Shown here one piece after another: positions 30,638-41,274 of a DNA stretch of 64,000 nt. A program made the translations under genes and the position numbers. The stretch spans positions 3,472,001 to 3,536,000 of the forward strand of contig NZ_CP019285.1 of the NCBI RefSeq assembly GCF_000226975.2. The letters run 5' to 3'. Position 1 is the first letter of the stretch; every line of letters starts with the position of its first letter. A model generated the notes under the pieces. It was not told the DNA's origin. It searched no databases and saw nothing but the letters and a program-made list of their open reading frames with translations. The DNA comes from Halobiforma lacisalsi AJ5. GTDB lineage: Archaea > Halobacteriota > Halobacteria > Halobacteriales > Natrialbaceae.

Positions 30638-30738
30638 TCGGGGCGACCGCGACGACGGGAACGAGTCCGGGATCGACCGCCCGCGAGAGACAGCACGCGA
30701 ACGCGCACGCGCACGTCACCGACGGAGGGATGCGATGA
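30634..30738 (+). CDS. 34-codon mini-ORF linking ferritin-like gene and sirR
   Basis: An ATG at 30634 overlaps the ferritin-like stop (ATGA), and the mini-ORF's TGA (30736-30738) overlaps the regulator's ATG at 30735 (ATGA). The 34-aa product is Thr/Gly-rich then His-rich (RERQHANAHAHV). The double overlap would let ribosomes pass straight from the ferritin-like gene to the regulator. It may be only a coupling device, a small metal-binding peptide, or chance. No homologue is known to me. Confidence 0.35.
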   Translation: MIGATATTGTSPGSTARERQHANAHAHVTDGGMR

Positions 30739-31169
30739 ACACCGCAGACCAGTACCTCAAGGCCATCTACCTCGCCCAGCGAATCGAAGACGGCCCCGCG
30801 TCGACCGGCACGCTCGCCGACCTGCTCGAGGTGAGTCCGGCAAGCGTCAACGAAATGATCGGGAAACTCGAGGACCGCGACCTCGTCGACCACGAGAAGT
30901 ACAAGGGCGCCAGCCTGACCGACGAGGGACTCGAGCGCGCTCACGACGCCCTCCAGACGTACTGTATCATCGAGCGGTTCCTCGCGAACGTCCTCGAGGT
31001 CGAGGAGTTTCGGGAGGAGGCCCGCGCGCTGGAGAGCGTCATCGACGATACGGTCGCGGAGCGGCTTGATACGATCATCGACCGCCCGGAGGAGTGTCCC
31101 GACTGTTTCGACCCCGAGAAGGACTGCTGTGAGCGACTCGAGGCCGAGTTGAGCGGTTGCGCTGACTGA
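30735..31169 (+). CDS. DtxR/SirR-type metal-dependent regulator
   Basis: The 144-aa protein begins MNTADQYLKAIYLAQRIEDG and has the DtxR winged helix (STGTLADLLEVSPASVNEMIGKLEDRDLV) followed by the dimer/metal domain (YCIIERFLANVLEVEEFREEARALESVIDD). The family represses iron or manganese uptake genes when metal is bound. The usual His of the EH metal pair is absent (ALES), while the C-terminus is Cys-rich: CPDCFDPEKDCC. This suggests a different metal site in this branch. It lies in a likely unit with the ferritin-like gene. There is no SH3-like third domain. Confidence 0.88.
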   Translation: MNTADQYLKAIYLAQRIEDGPASTGTLADLLEVSPASVNEMIGKLEDRDLVDHEKYKGASLTDEGLERAHDALQTYCIIERFLANVLEVEEFREEARALESVIDDTVAERLDTIIDRPEECPDCFDPEKDCCERLEAELSGCAD

Positions 31170-37975: not shown

Positions 37976-38416
37976 ATGAACCGGCGCGTCTATCTCGCGG
38001 CCGTCGGCACCGCCGCCACGAGCGGGCTGGCGGGGTGTACGTCCGCTCTCGGAATCCTCGAGGACGAGGGCTGTGATGGAGAGGCGTGTGACATCGGGAT
38101 GACCAGGAACGCGTTCGTCCCCGAGGAGTACGAGGTACGCGTCGGCGACACCGTCGTCTGGAAGAACACGAGCGGTGCCGATCACACGGTCACGGCGCGT
38201 GAGGGGACGCTCCCGGACGGGGCCGAGTACTTCTCGACGGGCGATTTCGAGGACGAAGACGCCGCCTACGACGCGTGGTTCGACGACCGCGGTGGACGGC
38301 TCGGGACCCGCCAGACGTTCGAGCACACGTTTACGGTGCCGGGCGAGTACACGTACGTCTGTATTCCGCACGAACGCGCCGGAATGGTCGGGACGATCGT
38401 CGTGACCGACGACTGA
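37976..38416 (+). CDS. Halocyanin-type blue copper lipoprotein
   Basis: The 146-aa protein has a signal ending at lipobox GLAGC (Cys21), then a plastocyanin domain. Copper ligands are His in GADHTVTA, Cys and His in YVCIPHERAGM, and the axial Met in the same segment, the full type I set. It carries electrons on the outer face of the membrane, probably to a terminal oxidase. It is a single gene. A related domain with a changed axial ligand is encoded at 39763-41274. Confidence 0.9.
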   Translation: MNRRVYLAAVGTAATSGLAGCTSALGILEDEGCDGEACDIGMTRNAFVPEEYEVRVGDTVVWKNTSGADHTVTAREGTLPDGAEYFSTGDFEDEDAAYDAWFDDRGGRLGTRQTFEHTFTVPGEYTYVCIPHERAGMVGTIVVTDD

Positions 38417-38644: not shown

Positions 38645-38656
38645 ACCTAGTTGTAT
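38645..38656. promoter_or_regulatory. Thi4 start-overlapping 12-bp motif
   Basis: ACCTAGTTGTAT overlaps the thi4 ATG. Its reverse complement ATACAACTAGGT occurs at 42265-42276, six bases before the ATG of another gene. A shared element at two starts could be a regulator site, ThiR being a candidate for thi4. Confidence 0.35.
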
Positions 38657-39584
38657 GAGCGACTTCGATCAGTTCAGTCAGGTCGGCGAAGCCGACGTAA
38701 CGCGTGCCATCGGACAGGAGTGGACCGAGGAGTTCATGGACTTCTCGGACTCGGACGTCATCATCGTCGGCGGGGGGCCCTCGGGGCTGACCGCGGCCAA
38801 GGAACTCTCCGAGCGCGGCGTCAAGACGATGGTCGTCGAGAAGAACAACTACCTCGGCGGCGGGTTCTGGCTCGGCGGGTTCCTGATGAACAAGGTCACC
38901 GTCCGCGACCCCGCCCAGTCGATCCTCGAGGAACTCGACGTCTCCTACAAGGAGTCCCAGGACAGCGAGGACCTCTACGTCGCGAACGGGCCCGAGGCCT
39001 GTTCCGGGCTCATCAAGGCCGCCTGTGACGCGGGCGCGAAGATGCAGAACATGACCGAGTTCACGGACATCGTCATCCGCGAGGACCACAAGGTCTCGGG
39101 GATCGTGATGAACTGGACGCCGGTCCACGCCCTGCCCCGCGAGATCACCTGCGTCGATCCGATCGCCGTCGAGGCGGACCTGGTCATCGACGCGACTGGC
39201 CACGACGCGATGGCCGTCAAGAAACTCGACGAGCGCGGGGTGCTCGACGCCCCGGGGATCGGCGACGCCGAGGCCAACGCCACCGGCATGGACCAGACGG
39301 GCGACGACAGCTACGGCGCGCCCGGCCACGACTCGCCCGGCCACGACTCGATGTGGGTCGGCAAGTCGGAGGACGCCGTCGTCGAACACACCGGCCTCGT
39401 TCACGACGGCCTGATCGCGACCGGCATGGCGACCGCGACGACCTACGGCCTGCCCCGCATGGGCCCGACCTTCGGGGCCATGCTCGTCTCGGGCAAGCGC
39501 GCGGCCCAGGAAGCCCTCGACGAACTCGAGGTCGACGCCGAACCGGTCGACATCACGTCGCGAGCGACGCCGGCCGACGACTGA
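38655..39584 (+). CDS. thi4: Thiazole synthase Thi4 (Cys-type)
   Basis: This 309-aa FAD/NAD-binding protein has the GxGxxG motif in [15 protein letters not shown] (about 34-48), [11 protein letters not shown] and the C-terminal [27 protein letters not shown]. It makes ADP-thiazole carboxylate for thiamine. Cys166 in REITCVDP matches the sulfur-donating Cys of yeast Thi4 and the essential Cys of Haloferax Thi4, so it is likely a suicide enzyme, not a sulfide-dependent one. The start overlaps the ACCTAGTTGTA element. ThiR, its expected repressor, is encoded at 44303-45202. Confidence 0.93.
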
Positions 39585-39742
39585 AACGAGCGATCGCCAG
39601 CCCACCGCTTTCGTCCGCAATTCGCCGGTTCACGCGGACCGCGACCGAAACCTTTCTGCGGACGGCGTCGAAAGCGATCCTACGCTGACTCGTTCTATCG
39701 GCTCTGCCCAGTTCGTGGGAACGACCGAAACCCATACTACTT

Positions 39743-39760
39743 TTTTAGGCTGACCTAAAA
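39743..39760. promoter_or_regulatory. DtxR/IdeR-like iron box
   Basis: TTTTAGGCTGACCTAAAA has a 7-bp perfect inverted repeat (TTTTAGG / CCTAAAA) around CTGA. It matches the TTAGG-N-CCTAA core of DtxR/IdeR boxes. It lies 2 bp before the ATG at 39763, with a TATA-like CCATACTAC at 39731-39739, so it would cover the start of a leaderless transcript and block it when metal is present. Confidence 0.7.
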
Positions 39761-39762
39761 CT

Positions 39763-41274
39763 ATGCCAACGAGACGGAACGTACTGGCGGTCGCCGCAGC
39801 GGTAACGGGGACGAGCATCGCGGGCTGTACCGACGACTCCGGCGCGGAAGCGGCCGAGGAGAGTCCCGACGAGGAGGACGACGATGACGGGACCGAGGAC
39901 GCCCTCGGTGCCGAACTCGGGGTTGCGGCCGAGTGGAACGCCATCCGGTCGCGCGTCGACGACGCGCTCGCGCTGGGGATCGCCGAGGAGTTCTCGGTCG
40001 GCGCGGCCGTCACGGGCGACACGCTCGCCCGGTTCGAGGCCGCGACCGACGAGTGGGGCGCACACGAGCAACTCGAGGAGACCGACCACGACGCCTACGA
40101 GGAGTTCGAGGAGGCCCTCGAGGAACTGCGACTCGAGGCCCTCGACGAGGAGGACCTCGAGCGCGCCCACACGGAGGCCGAAATCGCCGACGAACAGCTC
40201 CGGGAGGCACAGCGACAGCGCCTCTCACACCGGAACGCCCTGGCGTTCGACATGGGGCTGTTCGCTGCACGGATCGCCGACGTGGCGACGCTCGGAATCG
40301 CGGGTGAGTTCGACGGGGCGGCGGAGATCGCCCACGAGACCGACGAGCGCTGGGAGAACTCGATCGTCCACGACGAGGTCAGCGCGGCCGACGGGGACCT
40401 GTACGCCGCCTTCGAGGGCGAACTCCCCGGACTCGAGGAGGCCGCAGAGGACGAGGACCTCGAGGCGCTCGAGGAGGGTGCCGACGCCGCGATCACGGCC
40501 GCGTTCGACGCGGCGTACGTCCTCTCGGAGGACGACGCGGCGGCCCACGCGGCCACCCTCTCGGCGATGCAGGCACGCGCCTGGGACGCGGCGGTTCTCG
40601 CCTCGCTCGAGGGGGTCGAGCCGGAAACGGCCGCCGACGTCGCCCGCGGGGCCCTCGCCCGGTTCGAAGCCTCCCGCGCCCACGACGCCGTCGGGGCGGC
40701 CGACCACGACACCTACGAGGCCTTCGAGGGCGAACTCGAGGCCGTTGCAGACGCCCTGTCGGCCGACGAGGGCGTCGACGAGGCGATGGCCGAGTTCGCC
40801 GACGCCGCGTTGCGGGCACAGTTCGCCGTCGCCGGTGCGCTCGAGAAGGCACCGGGCGACGGCGGCGGTCACGACGGCGAGCACGGCCACGGCGATCACG
40901 ACGATCTCGAGGGTGGCCCGAACGTCGTGGAGGGCGTCCCAGACGACGCCGACCACGTCGTGGAGATGCACGCCGCGAGCTTCGAACCCGAGGAACTGAC
41001 GATCGAGGCCGGCGAGACCGTCGCCTTCGAACACGTGGAGGGCGAACCCCACACCGTCACGGCCTACGAGGACGGGGTTCCGGACGGGGCCGCCTACTGG
41101 GCGTCGGGCGGCTTCGAGGACGAGGACGCGGCCCGCGAGGGCTGGAAAGACGGCCGCGGGGCCGTCGTCTCGGGGCAGTCGTACGTCCGGACGTTCGAGG
41201 CCACGGGTACCCACGAGTTCTGCTGTATCCCCCACGAGGCCGCCGGCCACGTCGGACGGGTCGACGTGGAGTAA
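39763..41274 (+). CDS. DUF5059-like lipoprotein with plastocyanin domain
   Basis: The 503-aa protein has a lipobox (GTSIAGC, Cys23), an acidic linker, three alpha-helical repeats of the ARFEA...HDA...YEAFEGEL type (about 75-355), a His-rich linker (GGGHDGEHGHGDHDD) and a C-terminal plastocyanin domain (about 390-503). Copper ligands are His in GEPHTVTA and Cys/His in FCCIPHEAAG; the axial Met is His (AAGHVG). It is exposed at the outer membrane face. An iron box at its promoter suggests expression when iron is scarce. Role: electron transfer or metal capture, unproven. Confidence 0.8.
   Translation: MPTRRNVLAVAAAVTGTSIAGCTDDSGAEAAEESPDEEDDDDGTEDALGAELGVAAEWNAIRSRVDDALALGIAEEFSVGAAVTGDTLARFEAATDEWGAHEQLEETDHDAYEEFEEALEELRLEALDEEDLERAHTEAEIADEQLREAQRQRLSHRNALAFDMGLFAARIADVATLGIAGEFDGAAEIAHETDERWENSIVHDEVSAADGDLYAAFEGELPGLEEAAEDEDLEALEEGADAAITAAFDAAYVLSEDDAAAHAATLSAMQARAWDAAVLASLEGVEPETAADVARGALARFEASRAHDAVGAADHDTYEAFEGELEAVADALSADEGVDEAMAEFADAALRAQFAVAGALEKAPGDGGGHDGEHGHGDHDDLEGGPNVVEGVPDDADHVVEMHAASFEPEELTIEAGETVAFEHVEGEPHTVTAYEDGVPDGAAYWASGGFEDEDAAREGWKDGRGAVVSGQSYVRTFEATGTHEFCCIPHEAAGHVGRVDVE

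Follow-up and report, generated by a model that had tools for sequence, protein, structure and literature searches.

The window analysed here, a stretch of 64,000 nucleotides from Halobiforma lacisalsi AJ5, carries on its forward strand (39763-41274) the gene for a putative exported protein of 503 amino acids that joins DUF5059 to a blue-copper domain. By inspection, the product begins with a signal peptide (amino acids 1-22; 39763-39828, forward strand) that has a twin-arginine start (TRR) and a lipobox-like AGC at Cys22. This is followed, all on the forward strand, by tandem four-helix bundles (amino acids 46-358; 39898-40836), a His-rich linker (HDGEHGHGDH, amino acids 370-379; 40870-40899), and a blue-copper domain with the plastocyanin/amicyanin fold (amino acids 398-503; 40954-41271). 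The bundles are taken from an AlphaFold2 model, with a pLDDT of 92.9 and a pTM of 0.91 for the helical part. DUF5059 (PF16502) matches amino acids 54-288 and, beyond them, another stretch with 248.6 bits (gathering cut-off 25), and Copper-bind (PF00127) matches amino acids 401-503 with 50.8 bits (cut-off 21.2). The window protein, a short form, leaves the central portion of the PF16502 profile unmatched. In a long-form relative (L127, 837 amino acids) PF16502 spans amino acids 69-691 and precedes the copper domain, and DUF5059 therefore denotes the helical part alone. The original prediction spoke of a copper electron carrier; the blue-copper domain it implied is present, but covers only the last fifth of the product, and the halocyanin model TIGR03102 scores 24.2 bits against the protein, far below its cut-off of 93.8.

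Ninety-seven DUF5059 proteins were aligned, two of 99 being left out as too short. His101, Glu102, Leu104, Tyr112 and Glu116 are invariant, and Glu92, Glu105 and Phe115 nearly so. The pattern F-E...H...E....Y..F/E to which they belong recurs in every helical repeat, and the window protein has three such repeats within its bundles, around amino acids 91-116, 198-218 and 301-322. The copper ligands His430, Cys488 and His491 are conserved. At the fourth ligand position, the window protein has His496 in place of the usual axial Met; this position is Met in 89 proteins, His in 4 (window included), Gln in 2 and a gap in 2. The corresponding segment of the window (41224-41250) encodes Cys-Cys-x-x-His, and the exchange of axial Met for His or Gln is confined to a small clade (6 of 97), which offers a natural series for studying redox tuning. 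Axial Gln occurs in some cupredoxins.

Immediately before the gene lies an 18-mer box, TTTTAGGCTGACCTAAAA, at 39743-39760. It is the single match in the window at up to three mismatches, and none was obtained in 100 shuffles. Its core TTAGGCTGACCTAA (TTAGG-CTGA-CCTAA; 39745-39758) ends four bases 5′ of the ATG, and two bases separate the full 18-mer from the ATG at 39763. Further upstream on the forward strand are a weak TATA-like element, CATACTAC, at 39733-39740 (-30 to -23 from the A of the ATG), and CCGAAA at 39725-39730, which we take to be a possible TFB recognition element (BRE). The box thus has exactly the position given in the original prediction, downstream of the TATA-like element and upstream of the start codon, an arrangement that fits a leaderless transcript. 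No RNA element was found across the gene start.

The DtxR/IdeR-type core ascribed to the box is also there, in the form of inverted CCTAA repeats with a 4-bp spacer. As described in PMC10317159, such repeats bind a single IdeR dimer, and IdeR boxes of repressed genes overlap the start of transcription. By that definition the window box equals the published single-dimer half-site; the full 19-bp IdeR site, TTAGGTTAGSCTAACCTAA, is absent here, where the half-site stands alone. The box is real, and judged by its sequence it is an operator of the DtxR/IdeR type and of the half-site kind.

The box before DUF5059 genes and across the genome

DUF5059 is present in 99 of the 391 genomes of the class, 98 of them above the cut-off. 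The promoter set, made up of 98 loci and the window, comprises 99 promoters; 98 genomes are represented, one of them twice. It leaves out the locus of G145, which scores below the cut-off and has an internal stop, and a contig-end fragment (G189:C5). Near the start, 93 of the 99 promoters have an exact box as their best match and the other 6 one with a single mismatch, and the most downstream box begins 14-22 bp 5′ of the start codon in all but one (98 of 99). A second box was found within 200 bp in 84 promoters, and in 81 of them it lies 34-37 bp further upstream. Forty-one different N4 spacer tetramers occur among these promoters, and the conservation of the box therefore goes beyond shared ancestry of one stretch. 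In 88 non-redundant promoters, a T-rich element lies 7-10 bp 5′ of the box start, and the window's CATACTAC aligns with these columns; in tandem promoters the two boxes therefore flank the TATA-like element. The lineage of the window has kept the start-proximal box, and the upstream one is absent. The haloarchaeal operator would thus be an IdeR half-site, arranged in tandem in most DUF5059 promoters.

A palindrome arisen by chance was considered, since a site with at most one mismatch is expected in about one fifth of shuffled windows; with the exact box recurring among so many different spacers, and its placement relative to the start also conserved, we regard this explanation as practically dismissed. 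Elsewhere in the DUF5059 loci, 24 exact boxes were counted among 543,242 positions, with just 4 one-mismatch sites. Within one group of relatives, many exact boxes lie directly 3′ of the DUF5059 gene. At 17 loci (L028-L047, L052, L053) another exact box, itself followed by an ATG, is seen about 40-70 bp behind the gene. One of the extra exact boxes precedes a gene that on inspection resembles those for FhuD-type binding proteins. The search for related loci yielded only three named homologues. Gene-neighbour clustering gave no conserved iron operon partner of DUF5059 beyond a few; clusters that were lineage-specific or made of spurious antisense frames were discarded, and DUF7551/7552 alone stood out.

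The original prediction had also called for a scan of the genome for the same box. In the 4.38-Mb genome of H. lacisalsi AJ5, exact TTAGGN4CCTAA occurs at 15 sites, compared with 0.19 expected under a first-order model built on 181,700 of its own bases. The longer form TTTAGGN4CCTAAA has 12 sites and its reversed control none. When one mismatch is allowed, the reversed control becomes the commoner of the two (50 vs 21), so that exact sites alone are informative and degenerate matches carry no weight. Six of the 15 exact sites precede genes that Pfam assigns to ABC transporters: two Peripla_BP_2 genes, a FecCD permease, an SBP, a BPD permease and an ABC ATPase with a TOBE domain. Several of these have their ATG about 12 bp past the box centre, as the window gene does. 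Other boxed genes were assigned by Pfam to ScdA/hemerythrin, DUF7551/7552 (two boxes), glycosyltransferases and a cupin and, less clearly, to a methyltransferase and a Macro domain. Among the 15 exact sites, no copper gene other than that of DUF5059 was seen to carry a box, and the halocyanin gene of the window (37976-38416), 1.8 kb upstream of the DUF5059 gene, has none. A Thi4-family gene (38655-39584) stands between these two.

These data place the DUF5059 gene almost certainly in an iron-type regulon. The original prediction held that the placement of the box would silence the gene when iron is plentiful; the position would indeed block transcription once a repressor is loaded, and membership in the iron regulon, as far as sequence can tell, supports this. 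We accordingly regard repression of the gene by iron as very likely.

Two further members of the boxed set are recorded as observations. A ScdA/hemerythrin gene of the iron-sulphur repair type has an exact box nearby, at an uncertain distance from its start (L002; contig C1:425437). The DUF7551/DUF7552 gene (L007:1516-2514; contig C1 near 1211102) stands alone in this genome with two iron boxes, and in 9 of the 99 loci such a gene follows directly behind DUF5059 without a box of its own. Going by its boxes, DUF7551/DUF7552 belongs to the iron regulon as well, another uncharacterised protein beside DUF5059.

The two DtxR-family proteins and the metal signal

The genome encodes two proteins with PF02742. 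The first, of 144 amino acids, is a SirR-like relative of DtxR encoded in the window at 30735-31169 on the forward strand, and was named in the original prediction as the regulator. The second is a DtxR protein of 226 amino acids with an FeoA domain, whose gene lies outside the window (contig C1, 3229073-3229750). The 226-residue type is found in all 50 of the DUF5059 genomes sampled (50 of 98), with the short SirR type alongside it in nearly all. Because both types are near-ubiquitous, presence or absence does not discriminate between them, and ligand residues were used instead.

At IdeR positions 10, 79, 83, 98, 102, 105 and 106, the residues of the SirR-like protein are Q, Y, E, R, R, E and S, and five of the seven DtxR metal ligands are lost in 20 of 20 sampled relatives. 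The 226-residue protein has D, H, E, H, D, E and H at the same positions in 30 of 30 relatives, a metal site that looks complete. A DtxR-family protein is encoded at 30735 as claimed, with a DtxR-type DNA-binding domain, and its gene lies 9 kb from the box and 6-10 kb from it in some close relatives; with its ligands lost and its gene adjoining that of SufD, it is nevertheless an unlikely repressor at the box, and its proposed role as the sensor is not supported. Its relatives share a conserved, Cys-rich CPxCF...C tail. The gene stands directly behind SufD, which suggests regulation linked to Fe-S, and the protein could be an Fe-S or thiol sensor. The plausible sensor is thus corrected to the 226-residue protein, which we infer to be the probable repressor at the box. 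The original observation was right, and stronger than had been stated; its regulatory reading was right in substance, and its choice of regulator was probably wrong.

The ligand set of the 226-residue protein also bears on which metal is sensed. Asp replaces Met10 and Cys102 of IdeR, which is the variant of manganese regulators and is seen in all 30 relatives; the nearest NCBIfam model is the manganese regulator MntR, with a score below its cut-off; and on inspection a metal-transporter-like ORF follows the regulator gene. A manganese signal, or iron and manganese together, would account for these features, but the boxed genes include FecCD, Peripla_BP_2 and ScdA, the DUF5059 gene of Haloferax volcanii moves with siderophore genes in the datasets described below, and the titles of cited works give TroR an iron role in that species. 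We therefore consider manganese, alone or with iron, an improbable signal.

Expression, siderophores and the role of the protein

The DUF5059 protein of H. volcanii is HVO_1228, alias hcpE (PMC7714728). In an endA knock-down its gene rose by 4.2 log2 and was among the ten most up-regulated, a set that also includes siderophore genes (iuc) and an iron transporter (Table 2 of PMC7714728). In a cas1 fen1 double mutant it fell (-2.92), as did iucA, bdb, dat and the gene of an iron transporter (Table 1 of PMC9051519). Since neither perturbation was aimed at iron, what both tables show is co-regulation and no more. The H. volcanii proteome under iron starvation makes no mention of HVO_1228 in its main text (PMC11349517). 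In the part of the literature that was covered, we found no printed link of DUF5059 or halocyanin to iron regulation, and an earlier description is possible.

IucA/IucC was found in 37 of the 98 genomes with DUF5059 and in 74 of the 293 without it (counted after removal of G145 and G179, which score below the cut-offs of the families), and in the genome of H. lacisalsi AJ5 it is absent. The association is weak, with a Fisher p of 0.02 before any correction for relatedness, and DUF5059 is not tied to siderophore synthesis.

Our preferred explanation, to which we give a probability of roughly 0.55, is an iron-repressed surface lipoprotein that handles iron through its helical bundles and a copper redox step. 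With iron plentiful, a metal-loaded DtxR-family repressor would occupy the box, downstream of the TATA-like element and just before the leaderless start, and so block transcription; with iron short, the DUF5059 gene would be expressed. The exported lipoprotein would then most likely bind iron at the cell surface via its tandem bundles, and the copper centre may carry out a redox step, probably the conversion between Fe(II) and Fe(III), on the way to an ABC importer. Action in iron acquisition at the surface is suggested by the combination of export, invariant His/Glu/Tyr repeats, His-rich linker, copper domain and iron regulon, and we put the odds that this is the function of the protein at about even.

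The original prediction left two functions open, a copper-for-iron swap and metal scavenging. The second comes close to the preferred explanation, with iron as the metal; the first fares less well, as it ignores the larger, helical part, in which the invariant residues resemble a binding site. In such a swap, a copper electron carrier would replace an iron-containing one (a cytochrome or a ferredoxin-dependent step) under iron shortage. The conserved His430, Cys488 and His491 and the plastocyanin/amicyanin fold would suit it, halocyanin is described as a one-electron carrier of haloarchaea (PMC8305020), and the proteome of iron-starved H. volcanii has lower levels of cytochromes and ferredoxins (PMC11349517). 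But a carrier needs no helical part of 300-600 residues with invariant His/Glu/Tyr repeats, and halocyanin is already the normal haloarchaeal carrier (PMC8305020). No box precedes the second halocyanin gene of the window (37976), and an axial ligand that is His here and Gln in sister proteins (6 of 97) would be odd for a conserved carrier. We hold a swap to be doubtful, and iron handling at the surface to be the likelier role.

The His-rich linker, the acidic repeats and the export of the whole protein would also suit protection of the surface under iron stress, with the protein acting as a copper or metal sponge or as a redox buffer and not as a component of uptake. The H, E and Y positions fixed in each repeat argue instead for a defined site, and no second box-bearing copper gene was seen among the 15 sites; we hold this role to be quite unlikely.

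DUF5059, a named family without a function, is placed in the iron-starvation response by its near-universal iron box, and its role is directly testable in H. volcanii via HVO_1228.

Comparison with known systems

The operator resembles those of DtxR/IdeR in its inverted CCTAA repeats, its 4-bp spacer and its overlap with the start of repressed genes (PMC10317159). It differs from the 19-bp overlapping IdeR site in that most relatives carry two half-sites 34-37 bp apart around the TATA-like element. The ferR regulon (Leyn and Rodionov 2015) was described in haloarchaea, the same class of organisms as the host of the window, and its signal was reported before fhu genes (Leyn and Rodionov 2015, cited in PMC11349517).

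The C-terminal domain is like halocyanin, plastocyanin and amicyanin in its fold and in its His, Cys and His copper ligands, whereas the window protein as a whole differs from them in its fusion to DUF5059 and in the replacement of the axial Met by His.

The closest functional parallel is EfeO/EfeM, described as an exported, iron-regulated cupredoxin joined to paired four-helix bundles with a His/Glu motif (PMC9174327, PMC3143127). Membership of the EfeO/imelysin family was rejected after a family search and fold searches with the whole protein and with the helical domain, which returned no significant helical match. M75 (PF09375) has no match in the protein (E 0.1) and none in the genome of H. 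lacisalsi AJ5, FTR1 permease was found in 0 of the 391 genomes of the class, and a Foldseek search of the PDB with the helical domain alone gave no match under E 0.001. The VIA-align rows consist of generic four-helix bundles (PsbQ, vinculin, talin, NarQ, SMBP, imelysin) in the 'common arrangement' range; imelysin 3n8u, at row 43 with Z 9.7 over 103 residues, ranks level with numerous four-helix bundles of unrelated proteins. The DUF5059 protein thus resembles EfeO by analogy at most, and is not a member of its family.

A tentative extension of the preferred explanation, which we advance with less assurance than its parts, is that DUF5059 lipoproteins are a means of acquiring iron which haloarchaea evolved separately from EfeO, P19 and Fet3. 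The bundles would capture iron, the copper domain would oxidise or reduce it, and a siderophore-type ABC importer would take it up without FTR1; in the lineage of the window the array would have been shortened, and the change of axial Met to His or Gln may retune the copper site. The window protein shares with EfeO its export, the combination of cupredoxin and helical bundles, a His/Glu pattern and iron-type regulation, whereas its domain order is reversed, its copper ligands are the classical blue-copper ones and its helical repeat pattern is different. If DUF5059 handles iron, it would represent a third kind of iron protein built from a cupredoxin and a helical bundle, and an archaeal one.
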